From assembly GCA_027013225.1 (NCBI GenBank), contig JALUXU010000069.1:1-64000 (forward strand): a stretch of 64,000 bases of DNA. The letters are read 5' to 3'. This document shows positions 17,826-32,161 of the stretch, piece after piece (the first letter of the stretch is position 1; each line of letters opens with the position of its first letter). The notes below the pieces were generated by a model, which was given only the letters and a program-made list of their open reading frames with translations, ran no database searches and was not told the origin of the DNA. The position numbers and the translations under genes are program-made. Source of the DNA: Acidihalobacter sp. Its GTDB lineage: Bacteria; Pseudomonadota; Gammaproteobacteria; DSM-5130; Acidihalobacteraceae.

Positions 17826-20636
17826 ATGAAGCAAGCCACTCCAACTTTGCTGCGACCTTATGACAAGCAACTACGCGCCCGCGTCAAGCTACTCGGCTCC
17901 CAGCTGGGGGAAATCTTGAGGGAGCACGCTGGCAGAAAAGTTTATTTTGCTGTCGAAACCTTACGCAAAGGTTACATCCGCCTCAGGCGACAGGAAGATC
18001 CTGCCTTGCGCGATCGCCTCATGAGATACATCGCCCGTCTGGACATCGACACTCTGGAACAAGTCATCCGCGCTTTCACCTGCTATTTCAGCCTCGTCAA
18101 CATCGCCGAAGAAGATCACGCCCACCGCTGGCGGCGGCAGCAAGTCTCGAAGGGAGAACGTTTCTGGCCCGGCTCTTTTGCCCGCACCATCCACGAACTG
18201 CAAGCCAACGGGCTACATGCCGACCAGTTGCAAACCCTGCTCGACCATTTGTGCTACAACCCGGTGATCACCGCCCATCCCACCGAAGCGCGGCGACGCA
18301 CCATCATGGAAATCCTGCGGCGCATCTTTCTGGTCAACGACCAGCTCAACCTGCGCCGCTGGGGGAAGCTGGAGCGCGAGGGATTGCTGGAGGATCTGCG
18401 CCGTGAAATCCTCACGCTCTGGCGCACCGACGAGGTGCGGATGCTCAAGCCAACAGTGCATGACGAAATCAGAAACGGTTTGTATTATTTCCGCGAAAGC
18501 CTGTTCGAAGCCGTGCCCTTGACCTATCGCTATGCCCAGCGGGCCATGGACCGCTACTACGGAGAAGGAGCAATCAACGTGCCAAGCTTCATTCGTTTCG
18601 GCAGCTGGATCGGCGGCGATCGCGACGGCAATCCCTATGTCAAACCGGAGACTACGGAATACGCGCTGCGACTGCAGATGCATGAAGCGCTCGAGGAATA
18701 TCATCGCCGCCTGGTCGATCTCGGCAAGCGCCTGACCCATTCTTTGCGTCTATGCAGTCCTTCGCCTGAATTCCTCGCCAGTCTGGAACTTGACCGAAAC
18801 ATCTGTGGCGGCGAATACGACGAAAAGCTCCCCGGCTTTACCAATGAGCCCTACCGCCGCAAGCTCTACACGATGCGCTGCCGCCTTCAGCACACCCTGG
18901 ATGCCGTCCGCCAGCGTTTGCGCGGTCATCCGGCCCGTTTGGACGCCGCCGCCTACCGCCACGCCGACCAACTGCTCAACGACCTGAAACTCATACGCGA
19001 TTCCTTGATCTCGCACGGCGATGCGCTCATCGCCAGCGGCGAATTACAAGACCTCATCCGTCTGGTCGAAACATTCGGATTCCATTTGCTCAAACTGGAT
19101 ATCCGCCAAGAGTCCAGCGTCCATACCCGTACCGTTGCCCAGATCATCGAACAACTTGCGCCGGGCCATGACTATTTAGGTATGGATGACGCAGCCCGTT
19201 GCCGCCTTCTGGGGCGCTTGATCGACACAGCCGTCCTGCCCACTTACGACCGAGCTCTGCTTGATGATGAGGCCCGGGAAACTCTGGCCGTATTCGCGAC
19301 CATAGGACGAATGCGTGAAGAGATAGGCGAAGATCCTTTCGGCAGCTACGTGATTTCGATGACCCATCAGGCCAGCCATGTGATCGAGGTTCTGTTTCTA
19401 GCCCGCCTGGCCGGCTTATGCGGCCGCACGGAAGAAGGACGCTTCTGCCACGTTCGCGCCGCGCCCTTGTTCGAAACCATCGAAGATCTAGCGCATATTC
19501 GCGACGTGCTTGGACGGTTGTTTTCCGCATCCGCCTACGACGGCATGCTCAAAGCAGCCGGCAATACCCAGGAAATCATGCTCGGCTACTCCGATTCCAC
19601 CAAGGACGGGGGCATTCTTGCCTCGGCTTGGGAACTCTATGAAGCACAGCGCCAGATCATCCAAATCACCCACGCGCACAACATTCATTGTCGCCTCTTC
19701 CATGGCCGTGGGGGCACTGTCGCCCGCGGCGGCGGTCCAACGCACGAGGCCATCATCGCTCAACCGCCAGGCACCGTGGAAGGTGAGATCAAGTTCACGG
19801 AACAAGGAGAAGTGCTCTACTACCGCTATGGTCACCAGGAAACCGCCGTGCATGAACTGACGCTGGGCAGTACCGGCCTGCTCAAGGCCAGCCTCGGCCT
19901 GGTACGCGAGATCCACGCCGATCGCGCGCCCTATCTGCAAACCGCAGCCGAACTCGCGGTTCTTGGCGAGGAGGCCTACCACGATCTGATCGACCGCACC
20001 CCCGGTCTGATCGACTTTTTCTATGAGGCGACACCAGTCAGCGAAATCGGGCGTCTCAACATCGGCTCGCGCCCTTCGCACCGAAAAAGCAGCGACCGCA
20101 GCAAGTCATCCATCCGCGCCATCCCCTGGGTATTTGGCTGGGCCCAGGCCCGTTACACCTTGCCAGGGTGGTATGGCATCGGTACGGCATTGAAACGCTG
20201 GCGTGGCGATGACCCGGAACGACTCGCGCTGCTGCGCGCTATGTATCAGGAATGGCCCTTCATGCGCGTCCTGCTGAGCAACATTCAGATGTCTCTGTTC
20301 AAGGCCGATATGCGCACCGCGGCCGAATACACCAGCTTGGTTCATGATCAAGCGCTCGCGCGGCAGATTCATCAGCGTATCGCCGAGGAATACGCGATGA
20401 GTGTCGAGGAAATCCTGACCGTCACCGGGACGGAAGAACTGCTGACGGAAAATCCGACACTGGCGCTCTCGCTGAGCCGCCGCAATCCCTATCTGGATCC
20501 ACTCAATCACATTCAGATCATTCTTCTGCAACGCTATCGTCACGCACAGAATGAAACACCCGAAAATAATCTCTGGCTAGGCCCTTTGCTGCGTTCCATC
20601 AAAGGAATCGCCATTGGCCAGCGCAACACCGGATGA
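17826..20636 (+). CDS. ppc: Phosphoenolpyruvate carboxylase
   Basis: 936 aa from the ATG at 17826-17828 (MKQATPTLLRPYD); the frame is open 11 codons further upstream without family similarity. Signature motifs are VITAHPTEARRRT with the catalytic His, GYSDSTKDGG, and FHGRGGTVARGGGP with the mobile loop. The C-terminus ends RNTG as in nearly all members. It fixes bicarbonate on PEP to give oxaloacetate, the main anaplerotic route. It appears monocistronic, with an 83-bp gap to the next gene. Confidence 0.97.
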   Translation: MKQATPTLLRPYDKQLRARVKLLGSQLGEILREHAGRKVYFAVETLRKGYIRLRRQEDPALRDRLMRYIARLDIDTLEQVIRAFTCYFSLVNIAEEDHAHRWRRQQVSKGERFWPGSFARTIHELQANGLHADQLQTLLDHLCYNPVITAHPTEARRRTIMEILRRIFLVNDQLNLRRWGKLEREGLLEDLRREILTLWRTDEVRMLKPTVHDEIRNGLYYFRESLFEAVPLTYRYAQRAMDRYYGEGAINVPSFIRFGSWIGGDRDGNPYVKPETTEYALRLQMHEALEEYHRRLVDLGKRLTHSLRLCSPSPEFLASLELDRNICGGEYDEKLPGFTNEPYRRKLYTMRCRLQHTLDAVRQRLRGHPARLDAAAYRHADQLLNDLKLIRDSLISHGDALIASGELQDLIRLVETFGFHLLKLDIRQESSVHTRTVAQIIEQLAPGHDYLGMDDAARCRLLGRLIDTAVLPTYDRALLDDEARETLAVFATIGRMREEIGEDPFGSYVISMTHQASHVIEVLFLARLAGLCGRTEEGRFCHVRAAPLFETIEDLAHIRDVLGRLFSASAYDGMLKAAGNTQEIMLGYSDSTKDGGILASAWELYEAQRQIIQITHAHNIHCRLFHGRGGTVARGGGPTHEAIIAQPPGTVEGEIKFTEQGEVLYYRYGHQETAVHELTLGSTGLLKASLGLVREIHADRAPYLQTAAELAVLGEEAYHDLIDRTPGLIDFFYEATPVSEIGRLNIGSRPSHRKSSDRSKSSIRAIPWVFGWAQARYTLPGWYGIGTALKRWRGDDPERLALLRAMYQEWPFMRVLLSNIQMSLFKADMRTAAEYTSLVHDQALARQIHQRIAEEYAMSVEEILTVTGTEELLTENPTLALSLSRRNPYLDPLNHIQIILLQRYRHAQNETPENNLWLGPLLRSIKGIAIGQRNTG

Positions 20637-20719: not shown

Positions 20720-22123
20720 ATGATCAGTAATACGCGAGGACCACGGCTATCCAAAAGTGTGGCTGCTTTCATGTTCATTCAAGGAGGGATCGCCTTCGGT
20801 TCGGTGTATCTTGCCGCTGAGCTGCGATTCCTCTTCGATCCCGAAATCAACGCCTACCTTGAAGACTTATGGCCGAGTGCACTGACATTCGCCGCCATGA
20901 CTGTTCTCGGCCTCGCTTCCATCGGCCTCTACCGGCAGCAACTTCGCGGCAACCTCAGCCAGGTGCTCCTGCAAATCGCCTTCGGCATCGTGATTGCCAT
21001 GATCGGCACGGCGTTGATTTTCTATCTCATCCCTTCCATCTATATTGGCCGTGGCGTCATTTCTTTGGCCATGCTGCTGACTTTTTTGGGCGCTATATGC
21101 TCTCAACTCATTTTTCTCAAACTGCTGGATCACGAAGCGTTCAAGCAAAGAGTGCTGATGTATGGCGCCGGCCAGAATGCGCAAGCCCTGATGGAGCGGC
21201 TACAACGAAAATCCGATCAGCGCCGGTTCCACATCGTTGGTTTCGTTCCTGTCTCAGGAGAATCCGCGTGCATTCCCGAAGACCATCACATCCACGCTGA
21301 TGAAACTGATCTTGTGAACCTCGCGCAACGGGAAAGAGTGGACGAAATCGTGATCGTCATGGACGAAAAGCGCAACCAACTACCACTTGAGCAATTGCTC
21401 ACGCTCAAATTCAGCGGGCTGAAAATAAGAAATGCGAGCGACTTCTATGAGCATTACATGGGCAAGCTCAAAGTCGATCTCATGCCGCCATCGTCTCTCA
21501 TTTTCGCCTCCGGTTTCGAACGGAACAATCGCGAGGAAATCCTGAAACGGATGCTTGATATTGGGGTTTCAACAACCATGCTCGTATTGCTATGGCCAAT
21601 CATGTTGCTGACCGCGTTCGCGATCCGGCTCGAAGACGGCTGGCGCGCGCCCATCCTGTATCGGCAGACCCGCGTCGGCCGCTATGAAACACCGTTCAAG
21701 GTTCTCAAGTTCCGCAGCATGCGCCCCAATGCCGAGGCCGATGGCAAGGCTCGCTGGGCGACCACTAACGACAACCGCATTACCCGCGTAGGCGGCTTCA
21801 TTCGCAAGTACCGCATTGACGAACTGCCGCAATTGTTCAATGTGCTCGCAGGTCAGATGAGCCTCGTGGGGCCGCGTCCGGAACGCCCTGAATTCGTGGC
21901 CAGGCTCAGCCAGAACATCCCCTATTACAACCTCAGGCACAACGTCCGCCCTGGTGTCACCGGTTGGGCCCAGATTTCCTATCCCTACGGAGCCACCGAG
22001 CGTGATGCGCTGGAAAAACTACAATACGACCTGTATTACGTCAAATACGCGAACCTGCTTTTCGACCTTTATATCCTGCTCGGCACGGTCGAAGTAATCC
22101 TTATGCGCAAAGGAGGCCGCTGA
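20720..22123 (+). CDS. PEP-CTERM-locus undecaprenyl-phosphate sugar-1-phosphate transferase
   Basis: 467 aa. There are four to five N-terminal membrane helices (about 12-125), then a Rossmann-like region (VLMYGAGQNAQALMERL, about 140-260). The last 190 residues are a bacterial sugar transferase domain after one more helix (about 280-305). Signatures are KFRSMRPNAEAD, YRIDELPQLFNVLAGQMS and GPRPERPEFV. It should load the first sugar of an exopolysaccharide repeat onto undecaprenyl phosphate at the inner membrane. The subfamily is the one usually found beside PrsK/PrsR. It is first in the plus-strand prs cluster, 21 bp before prsK. Confidence 0.9.
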   Translation: MISNTRGPRLSKSVAAFMFIQGGIAFGSVYLAAELRFLFDPEINAYLEDLWPSALTFAAMTVLGLASIGLYRQQLRGNLSQVLLQIAFGIVIAMIGTALIFYLIPSIYIGRGVISLAMLLTFLGAICSQLIFLKLLDHEAFKQRVLMYGAGQNAQALMERLQRKSDQRRFHIVGFVPVSGESACIPEDHHIHADETDLVNLAQRERVDEIVIVMDEKRNQLPLEQLLTLKFSGLKIRNASDFYEHYMGKLKVDLMPPSSLIFASGFERNNREEILKRMLDIGVSTTMLVLLWPIMLLTAFAIRLEDGWRAPILYRQTRVGRYETPFKVLKFRSMRPNAEADGKARWATTNDNRITRVGGFIRKYRIDELPQLFNVLAGQMSLVGPRPERPEFVARLSQNIPYYNLRHNVRPGVTGWAQISYPYGATERDALEKLQYDLYYVKYANLLFDLYILLGTVEVILMRKGGR

Positions 22124-22144
22124 GGCGGCCCGGTTCCGGCTGAC

Positions 22145-24232
22145 ATGGCCGAACTCACTCCGCTTGCCTGGGCCACATTCGGCAGCTACACCGCTGGCGC
22201 CGTCGCTTTCGGCCTGCTCAGCACCCTTCTCCTAATCAACCGTCAGCGAAGACTATTGGGCGCTGCGTTTTTCTTGGCTTGCCTGATCAATGCACTGTGG
22301 CTGGGCTTTCTTGCCAGCTGGCCCTGGCTGCCTGCTCTGCCTTGGCCGACGGTACCTGGCAGTGAATCGCTGCGGGATGCCGCCTGGCTGTTCTTTCTCG
22401 CCCGGCTGCTGCGTGGAGAATCTTCCCAGGCACGCACGGCCAATCGCACTCTGGCAGCGGCTGCCTTGGTGCTGCCACTCGGCTGGTTCGTCTGGGCGGT
22501 GTGGCCCGGCCCCGTTTTGCCGCCGTCAAGAACTGCCTATCTAATGGGTGGACTGATCATTGCCGTATTCGCATTATTCCTGCTGGAGCAATTCTGGCGC
22601 AATCTGGTGCCTGAACGGCGCTGGGCACTCAAATACCTTGCCATCGGCATGGCCACTTTCTTCGCCTATGATTTGCTGCTCTACTCCCAGGGGATGCTCT
22701 ATCATCACATCTCGCCCGACTTGTGGGCCGCACGCGGTGCGGTAGCCGTTCTCAGCGCGCCGCTGCTGGCGGTGGCCGCCGCTCGCGACCCCGACTGGTC
22801 CGGCGAACTTTTTGTCTCCCGCCGGCTGGTGTTTCGCACCACGATCCTGCTTGCCGCTGGCCTCTATCTGCTGCTCATGGCTGCTGGCGGCTACTACATC
22901 CGCAATTTCGGTGGAAGCTGGGGCGAGTTCTGGCAAATCGTATTCCTGTCCGCAGCGGTGACAGGAGGCGTGGTATTGCTGGCGTCAGCACAGGTGCGCG
23001 CCCGCATCAGGGTCTTTCTGCTTAAGAATTTTCACGCCTACCATTACGAGTACCGCGAAGAGTGGCAACGCCTGATCCACAGGCTCTACCGTCCGCAAGA
23101 TGCGCGATCGCCTCAGGAGCGCGCTGCCGATGCGCTGGCGGCGCTACTCGACACGCCGGGCACGGCCTTGTTCATTCGTGACGAAGCGGCGGGTAGCGAC
23201 TACGTCCCTGCCGTCATCAGCGCCATTGCCATCCCTCCACAAACGCATGAGTCTGCCGACAGCCCCATGATCCGATTCCTGAAGCGCACGCAATGGATCA
23301 TCGATGCCGACACTCTCACACAAGACCGCCGCCTTCACCCTGATCTCGAACTTGCAGAGTGGTTGGGAAATGTGCCCCGCTGGTGGCTCCTGGTGCCGCT
23401 TGCCCTGGATGACGATCTCATCGGCTTTGTTGTCCTGACCCGCCCGCGTGCGCCGCGCCGTCTCGACTGGGAAGATCGCGATCTGATCAAGGTCGTGGCG
23501 CTGCAACTGGCCGCTTACCTGGCCCAGCACCAAGCATCCCAGGCGCTCAGCCAGGCGCGTCAATTTCAGGCATTCACCCAGATGAGCACTTTCCTCATGC
23601 ATGACCTGAAGAATCTCATCGCCCAGCAGCAACTGTTGGTGAAGAACGCGGCCAGGCACAAGCGCAATCCGGAATTCGTGGACGACATGATCGCCACCAT
23701 CGACAACTCAGTACAACGCATGACTCGCTTGCTGGAACAGCTGCGCGGAAGCGAGGCCGTTACCCGCCGCCCATTGCGGGTGCTCGACGTCTTGCAGGCC
23801 GAAGCCGAGCGCACCGCCGACCGCAAACCCAAGGCACGGATCCACAGCCCGCCCGAAGTCACCGGAGCCCACATTGCGGCCGATCCACAAGCGTTCGCCA
23901 TGGTCTTGCATCACCTCATCCGCAACGCCCAAGATGCCACGCCCGAAGAAGGAGTAATTCGGGTTACACTCGAGCTTTTTGGAAACTGGGTAATCATCGA
24001 CGTAAGCGACACCGGCTGTGGCATGAGTGAGGATTTTATACGCGACCACCTGTTCACCCCCTTCGACTCCACCAAAGCGGCGAGGGGAATGGGCATTGGC
24101 GCTTTCCAGATCAGAACTTTCGCCCGTGAACATGGCGGCTCGGTGGATGTCGAAAGCCGCCCCGGCCAGGGCACCCGCTTTCGCCTGCGCCTGCCGCGCT
24201 ACGTTGACGACGACCGAGATGACCGACCATGA
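22145..24232 (+). CDS. prsK: PrsK, PEP-CTERM system sensor histidine kinase
   Basis: 695 aa. About eight hydrophobic segments fill residues 8-285, then a GAF-like domain (about 315-455). The histidine is H486 in STFLMHDLKNLIAQ, followed by a HATPase_c domain with the N box (RNAQDA) and G1 box DTGCGM (from 622). The multi-pass sensor plus cytoplasmic GAF layout is that of PrsK, the kinase linked to exosortase/PEP-CTERM loci. It should autophosphorylate and pass phosphate to PrsR. Its stop overlaps the prsR start (24229-24232). Confidence 0.92.
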   Translation: MAELTPLAWATFGSYTAGAVAFGLLSTLLLINRQRRLLGAAFFLACLINALWLGFLASWPWLPALPWPTVPGSESLRDAAWLFFLARLLRGESSQARTANRTLAAAALVLPLGWFVWAVWPGPVLPPSRTAYLMGGLIIAVFALFLLEQFWRNLVPERRWALKYLAIGMATFFAYDLLLYSQGMLYHHISPDLWAARGAVAVLSAPLLAVAAARDPDWSGELFVSRRLVFRTTILLAAGLYLLLMAAGGYYIRNFGGSWGEFWQIVFLSAAVTGGVVLLASAQVRARIRVFLLKNFHAYHYEYREEWQRLIHRLYRPQDARSPQERAADALAALLDTPGTALFIRDEAAGSDYVPAVISAIAIPPQTHESADSPMIRFLKRTQWIIDADTLTQDRRLHPDLELAEWLGNVPRWWLLVPLALDDDLIGFVVLTRPRAPRRLDWEDRDLIKVVALQLAAYLAQHQASQALSQARQFQAFTQMSTFLMHDLKNLIAQQQLLVKNAARHKRNPEFVDDMIATIDNSVQRMTRLLEQLRGSEAVTRRPLRVLDVLQAEAERTADRKPKARIHSPPEVTGAHIAADPQAFAMVLHHLIRNAQDATPEEGVIRVTLELFGNWVIIDVSDTGCGMSEDFIRDHLFTPFDSTKAARGMGIGAFQIRTFAREHGGSVDVESRPGQGTRFRLRLPRYVDDDRDDRP

Positions 24233-25581
24233 AGAATGAGCATCGCCCCCTGCTGATCGTGGAAGACGACCCCGGCCTCGCCCGCCAGCTCCGCTGGTCG
24301 CTGGAAAAATACCAGCCCGTGTTCGCCTCCGACCGGGAAGAAGCCCTCGCGCTCGTACGCAAGCACCGGCCCGCCGTGGTGCTTCAGGATCTCGGCCTGC
24401 CGCCCGACACCAACGGCACCGACGAAGGCATGGCCTGTCTGCAGGAAATCCTCAGGCTGGCGCCCGACACCAAGGTCATCGTCGTCACCGGCAACGGCGA
24501 CCAGAGCAGCGCGGTGCGGGCCATCGGCCTCGGTGCCTGGGACTTCCACGCCAAGCCGCTCGACCTGGACGTGCTCGGAATCCTCATCGAACGCGCGCAG
24601 CGCATCTGGGCGCTGGAACAGGAACACCGCGCACTGCAGCAAACTGCCGCATCGCCGCTGTCCGGCATCATCGCCGCCAGCCAGAACATGCTCGCCGTAC
24701 TGCGCCAGGTCGAGAAAGTCGCGCCCACCCGCGCCACCGTCCTCATCCAGGGCGAGACCGGCACCGGCAAGGAACTCATCGCCCGCGCCCTGCACCGCCT
24801 CAGCGAACGCGCCGGGCAGGCCTTCGTCGCCATCAACTGCGCCGCCATCCCCGACACGCTCCTCGAAAGTGAGCTTTTCGGCTATGAAAAGGGCGCGTTT
24901 ACCGGCGCGGCCCGGCAGACTCCGGGCAAGATCGAGCTGGCCGACCAGGGCACCCTGTTTCTGGACGAAATCGGCGACATGCCGCTGGATTTGCAGGCCA
25001 AGATGCTGCGTTTCCTGCAGGAACGCGTGATCGAACGCCTGGGAGGTCGCCGCGAAATAGCGGTGGATGTCCGCATCCTGTGCGCCACTCACCGCGACCT
25101 GGCCGAGCTGATCAAAAGCGGCGCCTTTCGTGAAGACCTGTATTACCGTATCAGCGAAATCGTGATCCAGATTCCGCCCCTGCGCGAACGCAGGAGTGAT
25201 GCCATCCCAATCGCGCAGGCGCTGCTACGACGCGCCGCAGAACAGCATGGCCGCACGATTCGCGGATTCACGCCGGACGCGCTGCAGGCGATAGAACATT
25301 ACCCCTGGCCCGGCAACGTCCGGGAAATGGAAAACCGCATCAACCGCGCCGCCATCATGGCCGAAAATGCCATGATCGATGCTGGCGATCTTGACCTTGA
25401 GGGAGAGAGCGACAAGCCGTTTCCCACCCTCAAGACGATCCGCGAAAACGCCGAACGCGAGGCCCTGGAACGCGCCCTGGGCGCTGCCGCCGGTAATTTA
25501 AGCAAAGCGGCCGAACTGCTCGGTATTTCCCGGCCGACACTCTATGACCTGTTGAAACGTCATCACCTCACTACGCAATGA
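24229..25581 (+). CDS. prsR: PrsR, sigma-54-dependent response regulator of the PEP-CTERM system
   Basis: 450 aa. The receiver domain has phospho-acceptor D54 ([10 protein letters not shown]) and K109. The AAA+ sigma-54 interaction domain has Walker A GETGTGKE (175-182), the GAFTGA loop (222-227) that touches sigma-54, and FLDEIGDM as Walker B. A Fis-type helix-turn-helix ends the protein ([21 protein letters not shown]). All parts needed for an enhancer-binding activator are intact. A likely target is the PEP-CTERM gene at 28789-29580, which has a sigma-54 promoter. It is coupled to prsK by a 4-bp overlap. Confidence 0.93.
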
Positions 25582-25603
25582 CTCATCTCTCACCGGAGTC
25601 CTC

Positions 25604-28402
25604 ATGAAAACATCGATCCGCCGCCTCCCCGTCACGATCATCCTGATGGTGGCCACCAGCCTGCTGCTGACGGCTTGCAACCATTCCTCCCCCCAGGCCC
25701 GCATCGAGCAGGCCCAGCAAGACATGGCCAAAGGCCAATCGCGAACCGCGCTCATCATTCTGCGCAATGTGGTCAAAAAAGATCCGCAAAACGCACAGGC
25801 CCGCATCCTGCTTGGCAGCGTGCTGTATCGCCTCGGCAATCCGGCGTCCGCGGCGGCGCAATTGCAGCAGGCCGCGGCGAAGACTGCGCTCCCCCCCCAG
25901 GCCCAATTCGATCTGGCCGAAGCGCTCCTGCAGACCGGCCACTTCGATGAGGCCGAGAAAGCCGCCCGGGCCATCCCGGCGAAAACCGAGACCATGGCGG
26001 CGCGCAAACTCGCCCTGCTCGGCATCATCGCCGTGCAAAAGAAAGAGTTATCGCATGCGAAGTCCCTGTTCTCCCAGGCCTTGGCCAAAGACCCCAAATC
26101 GGGCACCGCCCTGATCGGCCAAGGCTTGCTGGCGCTGGCCGAAGGCAATCCGCGGCTGGCCGACGCCAAGGCCGACGCGGCCCTGGCCATCGCCCCCCAA
26201 AATGCCCTGGCCTGGCTCGTCAAGGGCGATGCCGCCCTGGCCGAATTGCACGTGCAGGATGCGGCAAATGCCCTGCAAAAAGCCGTGGACATCGGACCGC
26301 CCAGCCTGTCTCCTTATCAGAGCTTCGTCGCGCGGGGTCGGTTGGCGCAGGCCGAGCTCACCCTGGGACGCCGCAAAGACGCCCTGAAAAACGTCGAAAT
26401 CATGCTCAAACAGGCCCCCAAGGCCCCCTTCCCGAATTTCCTGCGCGGTCTGATCGCCTATCAGAACAAGAATTACCAAACCGCGGCCAACCATCTGCAA
26501 ATCGCCCTCAACGCCGACCCCTACAATGTGCGCGCGCTCACGCTGCTGGGCGCCGCGGAAGCCGCGCAAGGGCAGAATCTACTGGCACAGAACCACCTGT
26601 CCAGCGCCTTGGGGATAAACCCCAATGATTCCATGGCGCGTCGCCAACTGGCCGAACTGCTGTTACGCACCGACCAGACCGCGCAGGCCATACAGACCAT
26701 TACCGCCGGCGCCGCTCCGGGCACGGCCAGCCAGCTCATCCTCTCCCTCTTCCCCTCGAACAGCGAGGCGATCAAGACACTCGCGGCCCTGAGCCGTGAA
26801 CTGCCGCAAAGCGACAAGGTGCGTCTGGCGCTGGCACAGGCGATGCTGGAGAGCGGAGAAAACCAGCAGGCGCTCACCCTGCTCGACCAGCTGAAAAGCG
26901 CCACCGGAAACGCTGCATTGAATGCCCTGCGGCTCAAGGCCATGGCCTACCTCAGAGCGCATCAAACGGCCAAGGCACTCGCCATCGCCGCGCAGCTCGC
27001 CGGGCAAGCGCCGCCGAGCACCGGCGCCTTGAAGCTGGCCGCTGCCATTTATGCCGCCGCGAAGCGGCCTGCCATGGCCGAAGCCGTACTCCGCCGGGCC
27101 CAACGCCTAGTGCCCAGAAACGCAGACATCGCCGACTTGTTGGGCGACCTGCTGCTGCGTCAGGGGCGATTGACGAATGCCCGCGGCGCCTTCGACAAAG
27201 CGCTCACCGCGCGGCCGGGCGATTTGTTTGCCCTGCTCTCGCTGGCCCGCATCGACGCATTGCAAAACCGCCCCGCCGCCATGCTCCAACGCCTGCAACA
27301 GGCGCATGCCGCGCATCCGGCCGCCCTGCCACCGCTGGTGATGCTCAGCCGTTATTACCTGCTCGACAAACAACCGCAGCTCGCCCTGGGCTATGCTCAG
27401 CAGGCCGTTGCCATAAAGCCGGACAATCCCGGACTGCTGACCTTGCTCGGTAGCGCGCAACTCGCCGCCCTGCGACCGGCTGCCGCCTTGCAATCCTTCC
27501 ATGCCGCCGCACAAGCCGCGCCGGATCAACCCCGCTATGCCCTCAACCTGGCGGCCGCCCTGCTGGCGCAAAAGCAATACACCCAGGCGCGCGCGATGCT
27601 TACGCGCGTGGTCGCCGCGCACCCCGACAATGTCGCCGCGGCGCGCGCCCTCGCCTTCACCGAACTCGAGCTCGATCAGCCGCAAAAGGCGCTTGCCGTC
27701 GCCACCCGCCTGGCGGCGAGCGGGCAAGCGCGCCTTGCTGCCCAGGGATGGATGCTGGAAGGCGACCTGCGGTACGCGCAAAAACACTACGCCGCCGCCG
27801 AAGCCGCGTACGTGAAGGCGCAGCAGCGCCAGCCAAGCGCCGCGCTGGCGCTGCGCCAATTCCTGGCGCGCCAGCACGGTGCATTGGCCGATCCGACGCA
27901 GCCACTGCGCCGCTGGCTGAAAGCCCATCCGCAGGATACGGCCATCCGCCAGATACTAGCGACTTATGAACTCGAAACCGGCGACTACGCCCAAGCCAAA
28001 ACCAACTACCGGCGGATATTGCAGCAGCAGCCTGACAATCCCATCGCCAACAACAACCTGGCGTGGCTGATCGGCCGGCATGACCCGCACAAGGCGCTGC
28101 CCTACGCCGAGCGGGCGCATCGGGCCGCCCCCGATCTGCCACAGATCGACGACACGCTCGGTTGGTTGCTGGTTCGCAGCGGTCAGGCCAAACGCGCCCT
28201 GCCATTGCTTCGCCGGGCAGCGCAGGCCGAACCTGGCACCGCCGCAGTGCAATATCACTATGCGGCCGCGCTGGCCGCCAGCGGCCTCAGCGCACAGGCC
28301 ATTGGCCGGCTCGAAAAACTGTTGGCGAAACCGGCGGCCCCCTTCACCGAGCGAAACGCCGCTGAAGCCTTGCTACGGCGCCTGAAAGGCGGGGCTGGCT
28401 GA
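25604..28402 (+). CDS. prsT: PrsT, TPR-repeat lipoprotein of the PEP-CTERM system
   Basis: 932 aa. An N-terminal lipoprotein signal ends with the lipobox LLTAC (Cys25). The rest is a chain of more than twenty tetratricopeptide repeats, visible as recurring A-x-x-x-L-G-x-x-L/A-x-x-x-G patterns. This is the large TPR protein that follows prsK-prsR in exosortase loci and is probably a periplasmic scaffold for exopolysaccharide export or assembly; its exact role is not known. It lies 22 bp after prsR with a GGAG Shine-Dalgarno. GC content is very high and the protein is Ala-rich. Confidence 0.9.
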   Translation: MKTSIRRLPVTIILMVATSLLLTACNHSSPQARIEQAQQDMAKGQSRTALIILRNVVKKDPQNAQARILLGSVLYRLGNPASAAAQLQQAAAKTALPPQAQFDLAEALLQTGHFDEAEKAARAIPAKTETMAARKLALLGIIAVQKKELSHAKSLFSQALAKDPKSGTALIGQGLLALAEGNPRLADAKADAALAIAPQNALAWLVKGDAALAELHVQDAANALQKAVDIGPPSLSPYQSFVARGRLAQAELTLGRRKDALKNVEIMLKQAPKAPFPNFLRGLIAYQNKNYQTAANHLQIALNADPYNVRALTLLGAAEAAQGQNLLAQNHLSSALGINPNDSMARRQLAELLLRTDQTAQAIQTITAGAAPGTASQLILSLFPSNSEAIKTLAALSRELPQSDKVRLALAQAMLESGENQQALTLLDQLKSATGNAALNALRLKAMAYLRAHQTAKALAIAAQLAGQAPPSTGALKLAAAIYAAAKRPAMAEAVLRRAQRLVPRNADIADLLGDLLLRQGRLTNARGAFDKALTARPGDLFALLSLARIDALQNRPAAMLQRLQQAHAAHPAALPPLVMLSRYYLLDKQPQLALGYAQQAVAIKPDNPGLLTLLGSAQLAALRPAAALQSFHAAAQAAPDQPRYALNLAAALLAQKQYTQARAMLTRVVAAHPDNVAAARALAFTELELDQPQKALAVATRLAASGQARLAAQGWMLEGDLRYAQKHYAAAEAAYVKAQQRQPSAALALRQFLARQHGALADPTQPLRRWLKAHPQDTAIRQILATYELETGDYAQAKTNYRRILQQQPDNPIANNNLAWLIGRHDPHKALPYAERAHRAAPDLPQIDDTLGWLLVRSGQAKRALPLLRRAAQAEPGTAAVQYHYAAALAASGLSAQAIGRLEKLLAKPAAPFTERNAAEALLRRLKGGAG

Positions 28403-28709: not shown

Positions 28710-28734
28710 AAAAAAATCGCCCCTGAAGGGCGAT
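28710..28734 (-). terminator. Intrinsic terminator of the PEP-CTERM gene
   Basis: Read on the minus strand, the stem ATCGCCC / GGGCGAT with a 5-base loop is followed by a run of seven T (plus positions 28710-28716). It stands about 55 bp after the PEP-CTERM gene stop and is a standard rho-independent terminator. Confidence 0.85.
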
Positions 28735-28788: not shown

Positions 28789-29580
28789 TCAGACCGTCTT
28801 GCCTTGCGAACGGCGGTAACGCCAGCCGAGCAGCCCCATCAACGCCAGACCCAGCCCCATCATGCCGAGATCGCTGGGTTCAGGCAGAGCGTTCGTGGCT
28901 TGCCCTGAGAGACTGGAGTTATAACCACTGCTCGGATAGAAAGTGCCGGTGGCGATATAGGTAAACGAATAGTATTTGTTGCCACTTGCACTCGTTTGGG
29001 CTGAGTTGGGCGCGCCGGTGCCGGGACCGACCTGCGCGTTCGTCGTAAATGCGTTAGAGGTAAACGAAGACCCATTGCCATAGGTATGCGAAGCGATCAG
29101 GTTGCCGGTGCCGAATGCGGAGTTGTCCGCATTCCAGTATTCGCTCAGAGTGAATCGGGATGCCTGTGTGATACCGATGTCCTGCTGCAAGATATTGACC
29201 GGCAACGGATTGGTCAGGTTCTGCACGGTGAACTCGACGGTGCCGATGATGGGACTTCCGCTAAAAGGTGCAAGCGTTAATGCGTTAGACAAGTTAAGAG
29301 TATACTTATCACCGATAGCATTGCCGCTGAATTGCCCATCAGTTCTGAAATTGGAGACGGGACTCGGGCAACTGCTGCCGCTGCAAGCGGCCGTGATCGA
29401 CCCCCCGGCCGTCGCCACATCCTGATTCAAAGTCGATCCGCTCAGCAGGGTGGAACCTCCCTGAGTCAGTGTGTATTTGAGGCTAATGACCTGAGCCGAG
29501 GCCGCCAGCGGCGCGCCGATCAGGACGGCGGCCGCGAGGCCCGCCAAGAGTTTGGGGGTGAATATGCGTGTCTTGTTCAT
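28789..29580 (-). CDS. PEP-CTERM sorting-domain exported protein
   Basis: 263 aa from the ATG at 29578-29580 (MNKTRIFTPKLL), with AGGAG 9 bases upstream. The N-terminal signal peptide ends near ASA (about 30-33). The mature part is Ser/Thr/Asn/Gly-rich with no known enzyme fold. The C-terminus is a full sorting signal: PEP at 233-235, a hydrophobic helix at 238-253, then a basic tail (R254, R256, R257, K261). Exosortases recognise and cut at this signal. The protein is therefore a predicted substrate, probably an extracellular or matrix protein. It has its own sigma-54 promoter and terminator, so it forms a single-gene unit. Confidence 0.93.
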   Translation of the reverse strand: MNKTRIFTPKLLAGLAAAVLIGAPLAASAQVISLKYTLTQGGSTLLSGSTLNQDVATAGGSITAACSGSSCPSPVSNFRTDGQFSGNAIGDKYTLNLSNALTLAPFSGSPIIGTVEFTVQNLTNPLPVNILQQDIGITQASRFTLSEYWNADNSAFGTGNLIASHTYGNGSSFTSNAFTTNAQVGPGTGAPNSAQTSASGNKYYSFTYIATGTFYPSSGYNSSLSGQATNALPEPSDLGMMGLGLALMGLLGWRYRRSQGKTV

Positions 29581-29648
29581 TGTTTCATGCTCCTGATGGG
29601 ATTTCCAAATCGAATCTTCGCTGCCAAGGCGCGGCTTGTCTTTGTCAA

Positions 29649-29664
29649 AGCACATTGCATGCCA
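29649..29664 (-). promoter_or_regulatory. Sigma-54 (-24/-12) promoter of the PEP-CTERM gene
   Basis: The minus strand reads TGGCATGCAATGTGCT. Against the consensus TGGCACG-N4-TTGCW it keeps the -24 GG and the -12 GC exactly ten bases apart, with two mismatches in the remaining defined positions. It ends about 69 bases before the start codon, leaving a leader of roughly 57 bases. The sigma-54 activator PrsR is encoded 3.2 kb away. Confidence 0.75.
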
Positions 29665-29707
29665 ATACGTGCTACTCATTGTAATAACAGATATTATTCT
29701 GACTCTG

Positions 29708-29723
29708 CTCGCGAAATTGCGAG
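29708..29723. promoter_or_regulatory. Dyad upstream of the sigma-54 promoter (candidate activator site)
   Basis: CTCGC-GAAATT-GCGAG is a perfect 5-bp dyad with a 6-base spacer, 44-59 bp upstream of the -24 element. Enhancer-binding proteins use such dyads, often further upstream. The assignment to PrsR is a guess from position. Confidence 0.3.
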
Positions 29724-29798
29724 ATCTTATGGCCAATTTGTAAAATTTTCCGACAGTTTTCCAATGCGTCCCCGCCCGCTGCCATGGCGCGACCGTGC

Positions 29799-30905
29799 TC
29801 ATTTGGCGTCTTTGCATACTTTCCTGCGCAGGCTGGCCGCCACCCGTGGGGCGGTCTGCCCATCCCACAAAGGCGGCGCATCCCGCCTATCCCGCCTTGA
29901 CAGTTCACGCATCGCGGATTCCAGCCCGGCCGGATCTGTTAGGCGGTTTGTCCCTTGAATCAAGGTGATAGGCCGTTCCGTACTGTCCCGCAAGGTCAGG
30001 CAGGGAATGCCGAGATAAGTGGTCTCTTCCTGAATGCCGCCGGAGTCGGTGATCACCGCTCTGGCGCCGAGCACCAGATTCATGAACGCGACATAGCCGA
30101 GCGGTTCGAGCAAAGTGATGCCGGAATGGGCCGCCAGCCGGGTGTAAAGTTTTCCGACAATGAGCCGCTGGCGGGTGCGGGGATGCACAGGAAACGCCAG
30201 CGGCAGATCGTCGGCCACCGCGCACAGGGCATCGGCCAGGCGGGCCAGGGTGGCGGGGTCGTCCACGTTGGACGGCCGGTGCAGGGTGACCACGGCGTAA
30301 GCGCCCTCGCGCAGACCCAGCGCGGCGCGGGTGCCGTCCGCCTCGATACGGCCGCGCATCAGCTCGAAAGCGTCGATCATGATGTTGCCCACGCATTCTA
30401 TGCGCCCCGGCGCGATGCCCTCGCGCAGCAGGTTCTGGTCTGCGTCCTCGGAGGGCGTCCACAGCAGGCTGGCCAGCTGATCGGTGAGCACGCGGTTGAT
30501 TTCCTCGGGCATGCGCCGGTCGCCGCTGCGCAGTCCGGCCTCGAGATGGGCCACCGGAATCCCCAGCTTGGCGGCGACCAGAGCGCAGGACAGCGTGGCG
30601 TTGACGTCGCCGGCGACCACGATCCAGTCCGGCGGATCATGCCGGCATCGCGCCTCGTAAGCCAGCAGCACGCCGGCGGTCTGCGCGGCGTGGCTGCCGC
30701 TGCCCACGCCCAGCGCAGCATGCGGCTCGGGCAAGCCGAAGTCTTCCCTGAACACGCGGGACATTTCGGGATCGTAGTGCTGGCCGGCGTCCACCAGCCG
30801 GGGTTCGCACCAGCTCGCATCGCGCAAGGCGCGGTACAGCGGGCCGATCTTCATGTAATTGGGCCGCGCCGCCACGATGAGGTCGATCCGTGGCCTGCGG
30901 TTCAC
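29799..30905 (-). CDS. wecB: UDP-N-acetylglucosamine 2-epimerase, non-hydrolysing (WecB-like)
   Basis: 368 aa from a GTG at 30903-30905, giving VNRRPRIDLIVAARPNYMK. The GTG overlaps the stop of the upstream glycosyltransferase (GTGA), which decides the start. Catalytic and binding motifs are VVAGDVNATLS, HLEAGLRSGDRRMPEEINRV, TLHRPSNVDD and TDSGGIQEETTYLGIP. It makes UDP-ManNAc from UDP-GlcNAc for surface polysaccharide. It is the last gene of the minus-strand polysaccharide operon; the PEP-CTERM gene follows after 218 bp under separate control. Confidence 0.92.
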   Translation of the reverse strand: MNRRPRIDLIVAARPNYMKIGPLYRALRDASWCEPRLVDAGQHYDPEMSRVFREDFGLPEPHAALGVGSGSHAAQTAGVLLAYEARCRHDPPDWIVVAGDVNATLSCALVAAKLGIPVAHLEAGLRSGDRRMPEEINRVLTDQLASLLWTPSEDADQNLLREGIAPGRIECVGNIMIDAFELMRGRIEADGTRAALGLREGAYAVVTLHRPSNVDDPATLARLADALCAVADDLPLAFPVHPRTRQRLIVGKLYTRLAAHSGITLLEPLGYVAFMNLVLGARAVITDSGGIQEETTYLGIPCLTLRDSTERPITLIQGTNRLTDPAGLESAMRELSRRDRRDAPPLWDGQTAPRVAASLRRKVCKDAK

Positions 30906-32161
30906 GCAGCGCCTCCCGTGATCTGTTCGAGCAGGCGGGCGAGCCGGGCCGCGCCCTCGGTGCGGGCGTGTCGCTCCGGCAGGGGCGCGAGCGGCTGGCC
31001 GCGCGCCGCCCTGGCCCGGCTCAAAAAACTTTGCAGCTGCGCGGCGGCGCTTGTGGTATCTCCGGCATCGGCGACCGTGGCGATCGCTTCGGTTTGCAGC
31101 AGGCGCGCCGACTCCCCGTCGGGATCGACGAGCGCGAAGACCGGCTTGCCCAGGCCAAGGTATTCGTACGCCTTGGCCGGAATCTGGGCGTTGAAGCGGG
31201 TGCCCTGCAACAGCAAAAGCCCGTCCGCTTCGAGTTGTTCGCGCAAGGCTTCGGCGCGCGGCAGGACGGGGGCGAAATCCACCCAATCGCCGAGACCGTA
31301 TCGAGACCGAAGTTCAAGATAAGCGCCCTGCTCCGGGGTGCCCGCCACCCCGCGCAATGTCACCCGCAACCCTTCGGGCGGCGCCCCGCCCGCCGCGCGC
31401 AAGCGGGACAATACCCGGAACAAGGGTTCGGGGCTGCGCCCCTCCGGATACAGGGCCCCGCTGTGCAACAGGCGCAAGGGGCCGCCGGGGGGCTGAACGC
31501 GGGCAAGCTCATGGGCCCGGCGGGCGGCCAGGATGTTTTCATCGTAGCCATTGGGAATCAGCTCGAAGCGCACGCGATGCTCGGCATAATGCCTCTGATA
31601 GGCCTCGCGCGCGCCTTCGGTGACGAACACGCAGGCGCTTGCCTGCCGGATGACCCGGGCTTCCAGCGCCATTTGCCAGTTGCAGTCGCGCGCGGTATTC
31701 GGCATTTCGGCATAGGCCATGGGATCGCGGAAATCGGCGATCCAGGGCAGGCCGCTGCGCGCCTGCAGTTCGGCCGCGATCCAGTGCGCGGTGGCAATGG
31801 GAAAAGTGGACCAGACCGCCCGCGGCCGGAACTTTTCGATCAGCCGGCGCCCGCGCGGCACGGCGCCGATTCGCCATGAGGCCCAGCGATCGGGCCGTGC
31901 GAAACGTGCCGGATAGCGGCCGAACAGCCCCAGGTGGCGCTTGGCATCCAGCGCGAAACTGCGAAACACGCGCCCGGCGAATTCGTCATCCGACAACAGG
32001 CTGGCGTCCCGGCGCGGATAGGCGATAGTGCTCGGGGCGAGGATGAGCGGCTCCCAGCCGGCGTCGCGCAGGCCGCGCGCCATGGACAGCGTGCGCAAGG
32101 TGCCGCTGACCTCGCCGCAGGGCGGGAAGTGCCAGGCCACCATAAGAATATTTTTGTCCAT
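30902..32161 (-). CDS. Glycosyltransferase family 4-like enzyme
   Basis: 419 aa from the ATG at 32159-32161 (MDKNILMVAWHFPP). The N-terminal Rossmann domain starts with the HFPP...SGTLRTLSMARGL acceptor motif. The C-terminal GT-B domain has LLHSGALYPEGR and the donor-site block IPAKAYEYLGLGKPVFAL. Sugar and acceptor are unknown. The sequence is typical of exopolysaccharide GT4 enzymes that act at the inner membrane. It is translationally coupled to the downstream epimerase, whose UDP-ManNAc product or a derivative could be its donor; that is inference. Confidence 0.85.
   Translation of the reverse strand: MDKNILMVAWHFPPCGEVSGTLRTLSMARGLRDAGWEPLILAPSTIAYPRRDASLLSDDEFAGRVFRSFALDAKRHLGLFGRYPARFARPDRWASWRIGAVPRGRRLIEKFRPRAVWSTFPIATAHWIAAELQARSGLPWIADFRDPMAYAEMPNTARDCNWQMALEARVIRQASACVFVTEGAREAYQRHYAEHRVRFELIPNGYDENILAARRAHELARVQPPGGPLRLLHSGALYPEGRSPEPLFRVLSRLRAAGGAPPEGLRVTLRGVAGTPEQGAYLELRSRYGLGDWVDFAPVLPRAEALREQLEADGLLLLQGTRFNAQIPAKAYEYLGLGKPVFALVDPDGESARLLQTEAIATVADAGDTTSAAAQLQSFLSRARAARGQPLAPLPERHARTEGAARLARLLEQITGGAA

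Follow-up and report, generated by a model that had tools for sequence, protein, structure and literature searches.

A candidate PrsR box and sigma-54 promoter ahead of the single recognisable PEP-CTERM gene of an Acidihalobacter genome, and the spacing of such pairs across the class

Introduction

The closest described system is the element that Haft et al. (2006; PMC1569441) reported ahead of 99 among 167 PEP-CTERM genes from Proteobacteria. In the available text of that paper, the element is composed of a 17-nt motif 1, which ends in TTTACA and is sometimes repeated, a spacer of 62.8 nt on average (SD 10.6, range 32-92), and a -24/-12 motif 2 that ends 23-221 nt ahead of the start codon. 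A phylogenetic profile tied the element to PrsR, PrsK and PrsT, the stimulus of PrsK being called obscure, and a single PEP-CTERM gene was also described in Rhodospirillum rubrum. In Zoogloea resiniphila, pepA is controlled by PrsK-PrsR and RpoN, and mutants in prsK and prsR still made polysaccharide and lost their flocs (Gao et al., 2018, as reported in PMC9012009). For pepA of Aquincola tertiaricarbonis RN12, which has a -24/-12 motif, the start site and the dependence on RpoN1 were measured (PMC9850573). At the qrr enhancers of the Vibrio LuxO-sigma-54 system, the distance between activator and promoter tolerates changes of about a helical turn (PMC4740811).

The locus of Acidihalobacter sp. 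described here shares with the 2006 element motif 1, the spacer, the -24/-12 motif, the distance to the ATG, the lone PEP-CTERM gene and the presence of PrsK, PrsR and PrsT. It differs in that extra sites were never within coding regions according to the available text of Haft et al., whereas here a second box lies inside wecB, and in that quantised spacing is not stated in that text. As in Aquincola, the PEP-CTERM gene stands beside prsT with a terminator-like hairpin between them, but here both genes converge, and control was shown there by experiment whereas here it is predicted from sequence. The circuit proposed is the same as in Zoogloea, although that is another genus with many PEP-CTERM genes, in place of the one found here; the Vibrio system differs in its activator and in its targets.

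Results

The window, i.e. the whole stretch of 64,000 nucleotides that was analysed, carries on its plus strand the genes epsB2 (glycosyltransferase, 20720..22123, TIGR03013), prsK (histidine kinase, 22145..24232, TIGR02916), prsR (response regulator, 24229..25581, TIGR02915) and prsT (TPR lipoprotein, 25604..28402, TIGR02917), all of them encoding proteins that score above the equivalog or subfamily cut-offs of the NCBIfam models. This array, at 20720-28402, converges on the PEP-CTERM gene. The preliminary description had placed a PrsR with a GAFTGA loop 3.2 kb away, and both details hold: the loop corresponds to residues 222-227, and a distance of 3.2 kb separates the end of prsR from the 3' end of the PEP-CTERM gene, compared with 4.1 kb to the promoter. 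Contig C58 carries the gene for RpoN (500.6 bits, cut-off 277), and contig C59 that for exosortase A (XrtA; 290 bits, cut-off 208), together with the EPS cluster. The genome encodes both components of an XrtA/PEP-CTERM sorting system, exosortase A and a TIGR02595 substrate, as well as the PrsK, PrsR and PrsT expected from the work of 2006.

The PEP-CTERM gene (28789..29580, minus strand) encodes a protein of 263 aa with the tail PEPSDLGMMGLGLALMGLLGWRYRR, which scores 17.7 bits against TIGR02595 (cut-off 16) and 19.5 bits against PF07589, just below the cut-off of 20.7. A whole-genome search with TIGR02595 gave this gene as the one match above cut-off, a search in which a divergent substrate could be missed; PF07589 at E 0.001 gave no match in this genome or in 14 controls, and TIGR02595 was used instead. 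A terminator of its own had also been attributed to the gene. A terminator-like hairpin followed by a T run is present 3' of it on the same strand (28716..28734), but it is plausible and not proven, because the scan returned two such sites and shuffled sequences gave 1.8 on average. A wecB-type UDP-GlcNAc 2-epimerase ORF (29799..31286), with homology from residue 133 on, lies upstream on this strand after a gap of 218 nt.

A pattern search identified the -24/-12 sequence TTGGCATGCAATGTGCT on the minus strand (29665-29649), with 11 of 13 consensus positions. The GG at 29663-29662 is followed by ten bases and by the GC at 29651-29650, and 68 nt separate the 17-mer from the ATG at 29580, thus confirming the GG-N10-GC spacing claimed earlier ahead of this start codon. 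The element is real. Its -12 half reads GTGC and not TTGC, which counts against a PrsR-activated, sigma-54-dependent promoter. Such patterns are at chance level in the whole 64-kb window, where TGGCAN7TGC has six matches compared with 4.65 expected and 16 sites reach at least 10/13, four of these at least 11/13; the pattern was for this reason rejected as stand-alone evidence, and the promoter is significant only together with the PrsR box. A 13/13 consensus, TTGGCACGTTGATTGCT, was found at 18569-18585 (minus strand), antisense within ppc, and no PrsR box with up to one mismatch was found near it. From the position of the 17-mer, transcription would be expected to start near 29638, and the promoter is predicted to depend on RpoN in this organism.

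The proximal candidate PrsR box, TGTCGGAAAATTTTACA, corresponds to Haft motif 1 and lies at 29739..29755 on the minus strand, 73 nt upstream of the promoter 17-mer, the gap from the end of the box to the GG being 75. As far as the available text of Haft et al. (2006) describes motif 1, the box fits it, with 17 nt that end in TTTACA; its 73-nt spacer, followed by GG-N10-GC, and the 68 nt from motif 2 to the start codon are both inside the published ranges. Since the pattern TGTCGRN6TTACA has only four exact matches in the 2.27-Mb genome, about 2e-4 boxes are expected in the 218-nt gap on the strand of the gene. This 17-mer, just outside the stretch first flagged, is likely the PrsR site, and phylogenetic co-occurrence suggests that PrsR may bind there. 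A box on contig C31 lies inside a 113-aa ORF, has a -24/-12 score of 7/13 and was taken as a chance match, and a one-mismatch box at C69:69613, with a -24/-12 score of 10 at a gap of 45, falls outside the spacing clusters described below and was not taken up.

A PrsR-type box is also found ahead of two PEP-CTERM genes in G001, the other genome of the genus. One of them is syntenic, as it adjoins prsT-prsR-prsK-epsB2, with gene order and box-promoter pair kept next to a different upstream gene. When both syntenic proteins were compared by BLASTP (28789-29580 vs. L118:6589-7404), only the 29-residue tail aligned, with 72% identity. Promoter and sorting tag appear, then, to be kept between the two species while the passenger differs. 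Between its PEP-CTERM gene and prsT, G001 has a ThiF-like gene, so assigned by eye, and an exosortase-associated acyltransferase (TIGR03694; L118:7549-9556), both absent from the window.

If the pattern were fortuitous and the gene transcribed from elsewhere, e.g. by read-through from wecB, the chance frequency of the -24/-12 sequence alone would be accounted for, and the scan listed no terminator between wecB and the PEP-CTERM gene on their strand. This explanation is nevertheless extremely improbable: an exact box has the low expectation given above even before a promoter is required, box and promoter are also kept in the sister species, there next to another upstream gene, and no sigma-70-like site was found on the strand of the gene in the promoter/terminator scan.

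The spacer contains the dyad noticed in the preliminary description, CTCGCGAAATTGCGAG (29708..29723, no strand assigned), with arms CTCGC and GCGAG around GAAATT; the box stands 16 nt beyond it, upstream. The dyad is indeed present upstream of the promoter, but it does not behave as an activator site. CTCGCN6GCGAG occurs at five places genome-wide, compared with four for a backwards control, and is absent from the spacers of both G001 promoters. A role as the PrsR binding site would gain from the fact that a dyad with GC-rich 5-bp arms appears in just 0.9% of shuffles of the window spacer (37% for a 5-bp dyad of any sequence). Across the pairs among the matches listed, GC-rich dyads were found in 12 of 105 spacers vs. 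5.7 expected, without common sequence. Given its background frequency, its lack of conservation and the fact that the link to PrsR is carried by another sequence, the dyad was rejected as the PrsR site, a role we regard as very unlikely.

The association of the proximal box with PrsR was analysed in 274 genomes of the class, 73 of them with PrsR above cut-off. The pair box-N50-80-GGN10GC occurs in 100 genomes, corresponding to 57 of the 73 PrsR-bearing and 43 of the 201 others (Fisher p 1.6e-17, relatedness uncorrected). Site totals were 188 vs. 16 controls in the PrsR-bearing genomes and 60 vs. 28 controls elsewhere. Against the association counts that 16 of the 73 PrsR-bearing genomes lack the pair as the pattern was written, and that the pair is present in 43 genomes with no PrsR above cut-off. 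An NtrC-like activator other than PrsR could work at the box of a real promoter, and at least five proteins of NtrC type in this genome match the PrsR model with E values up to 1e-50, to which the 43 genomes with a pair and no PrsR above cut-off may be added. However, a single site is present in most of these 43 genomes, which together reach only about double the control count, and there is genetic evidence for PrsK/PrsR in Zoogloea (in the available text of PMC9012009), making another activator improbable. Five genomes without PrsR above the family cut-off (G130, G209, G097, G032 and G200) have at least three pairs each, for which a missing contig, a divergent PrsR or chance are possible reasons.

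For the spacing analysis, all 114 listed places of the PrsR-bearing genomes were used apart from G111:C2:179783 (a duplicate) and, in G065, G226 and G250, one overlapping place per genome, with G000 and G001 entered separately. The 73 genomes were also scanned at gaps of 22-52 and 79-109, which added 26 further regions; seven places were left out, six from one scan and, from the other, one of G173 that is a near-copy of one in G026. The resulting set comprises 114 distinct pairs of box and GGC-N8-TGC from 37 genomes, among the matches listed. Pairs below 9/13 against the promoter consensus were left out of the IHF, second-box, dyad, PEP-CTERM-ORF and later period analyses, which reduced the set to 103-105 pairs depending on duplicate removal, the IHF analysis also being done without the window.

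Among the matches listed, a PEP-CTERM-like ORF followed 49 of 105 pairs, compared with 0 of 105 when the opposite strand of that DNA was read; the count of 49 may be low because several downstream ORFs run off the stretch examined. Looser regular-expression labels (54 of 114 pairs, among the matches listed) included false positives, and the stricter rule gave the former value. At L246, L251 and L262, pairs with gaps of 97-100 precede similar short ORFs that end near FRDFDAxAFRSLxE without a PEP-CTERM tail, possibly a non-PEP-CTERM target of PrsR.

The gaps between box end and GG were not evenly distributed. Among the matches listed, the 114 pairs fall at 50-54, 61-66, 74-80, 82-89, 96-100 and 104-109, with cluster means of 52.4, 64.2, 76.2, 86.2, 97.5 and 107.5, and none has a gap of 55-60, 67-73 or 90-95. 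The best period was 11.3 bp (nR2 55.9), a strength reached by none of 5000 jittered sets (maximum 12.1), and with one site per genome (37 genomes) the median nR2 was 18.2, again among the matches listed. Pairs were few (1 to 10) with five of six control patterns; with the promoter pattern reverse-complemented there were nine, with some phasing. As the preferred distances were first suggested by a subset of loci, the remaining 95 pairs were tested separately, with an nR2 of 52.3 and identical empty intervals (among the matches listed). With the period fixed at 11, the gaps up to 80 predict 22 of the 23 longer gaps within a quarter turn, and 20 to 22 of 23 with periods fixed from 10.5 to 11.25; when the period was left free on the gaps up to 80, prediction of the longer gaps failed, with 14 of 23 inside a quarter turn. 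The longer gaps alone were periodic too, none of 3000 jittered sets being as strong; these tests likewise refer to pairs among the matches listed. The gap of 75 in the window and that of 109 in the syntenic G001 promoter are in phase at period 11, although half of random gaps would be in phase too. No mention of helical phasing for PEP-CTERM genes was found in the literature searched, including the available text of Haft et al. (2006; PMC1569441).

The spacers were also scored with the nine-position consensus of IHF. Among the matches listed, 49 of 104 other promoters have an IHF-like sequence with 8 or 9 of 9 positions in the spacer, compared with about 13 expected from shuffles, and 23 of these 49 sites share one orientation and lie 30-32 nt before the promoter 17-mer. 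In the spacer of the window no IHF-like site was found, the best score being 6/9, a result against full conformity of this promoter.

A second box-like 17-mer, TGTCGGAAAACTTTACA, a near-copy of the proximal box, lies 404 bp upstream of it on the minus strand, inside the coding sequence of wecB (30143..30159); no GG-N10-GC follows it at gaps of 20-129. Promoters with a second box are frequent: among the matches listed, 25 of 103 have an exact one in the 600 bp upstream, on the same strand, vs. one on the opposite strand and two downstream as controls, and all three promoters of the genus have one (at 404, 212 and 180 bp). The distal box encodes the WecB residues IVGKLYT, and constraint on the protein is an unlikely cause of it, because the three PDB alignments listed, whose chains are closely related to one another, show no conservation of this stretch. 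Box-to-box distances up to 225 bp have a weaker periodicity, with about 0.1% of jittered sets as strong for 20 distances and 1.3% for the 17 distinct ones (among the matches listed). The distal box may be in use as well.

As to INDEPENDENCE from polysaccharide, even with one mismatch allowed no box was found ahead of epsB2-prsK-prsR-prsT, and contig C59, with the exosortase and EPS genes, has its sole exact box past the 3' end of the EPS cluster. The earlier claim that the PEP-CTERM gene is controlled independently of the polysaccharide operon fits the sequence to this extent. The stretch around the C59 box (L119:1912-2087) is 83% identical over 179 positions to the DNA upstream of the second G001 PEP-CTERM gene, and the similarity surrounds the distal box of that gene and stops just after it; no GG-N10-GC follows the C59 box at gaps of 20-129. 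The simplest reading would be that this lineage has lost that gene, of whose control region a relic survives, its gain in G001 being a possible alternative.

Discussion

The data argue for a PrsR-activated, sigma-54-dependent promoter of the class described by Haft et al. (2006) that drives the single PEP-CTERM gene, a reading to which we assign a probability of about 0.87. The boxes, the promoter pattern, the class-wide spacing rule and every gene of the circuit are seen directly in the sequences. Phosphorylated PrsR would bind the TGTCGRN6TTACA boxes, the proximal one at 29739-29755 and probably also the distal one at 30143-30159 in wecB, and would reach the sigma-54 RNA polymerase at 29665-29649 through a DNA loop, for which the box has to occupy a fixed helical face with respect to the promoter, at a gap of 75 here. 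Opening of the promoter would give a monocistronic transcript that ends after the hairpin at 28734-28716, and exosortase A, whose gene lies on a different contig, would process the exported protein at its PEP-CTERM tail.

The circuit that had been deduced at the outset, from PrsK-PrsR through a sigma-54 promoter to the PEP-CTERM gene, is well supported, with all its genes, a box and a promoter present, but it was already in print. It is not new because it was predicted by Haft et al. (2006), and the work on Zoogloea and Aquincola, in the text available, has been reported in its experimental support. The present analysis adds the correct box, the rule of helical spacing, a second box that lies within a coding sequence and a genome with a single recognisable substrate. 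On balance we favour a helical rule in which the box faces one side of the DNA with respect to the sigma-54 promoter and often has the support of a second box further upstream, here that in wecB, with the whole regulatory and sorting apparatus serving one recognisable substrate. With the box on one face, its position would shift by whole turns, as from 75 here to 109 in the sister species.

PEP-CTERM proteins reportedly keep the flocs of activated-sludge bacteria together, and the promoter would be their on-switch. The corrected box, together with the spacing rule, should help to predict PrsR targets from sequence, and the question of what PrsK senses could be put simply in a genome with one recognisable substrate.
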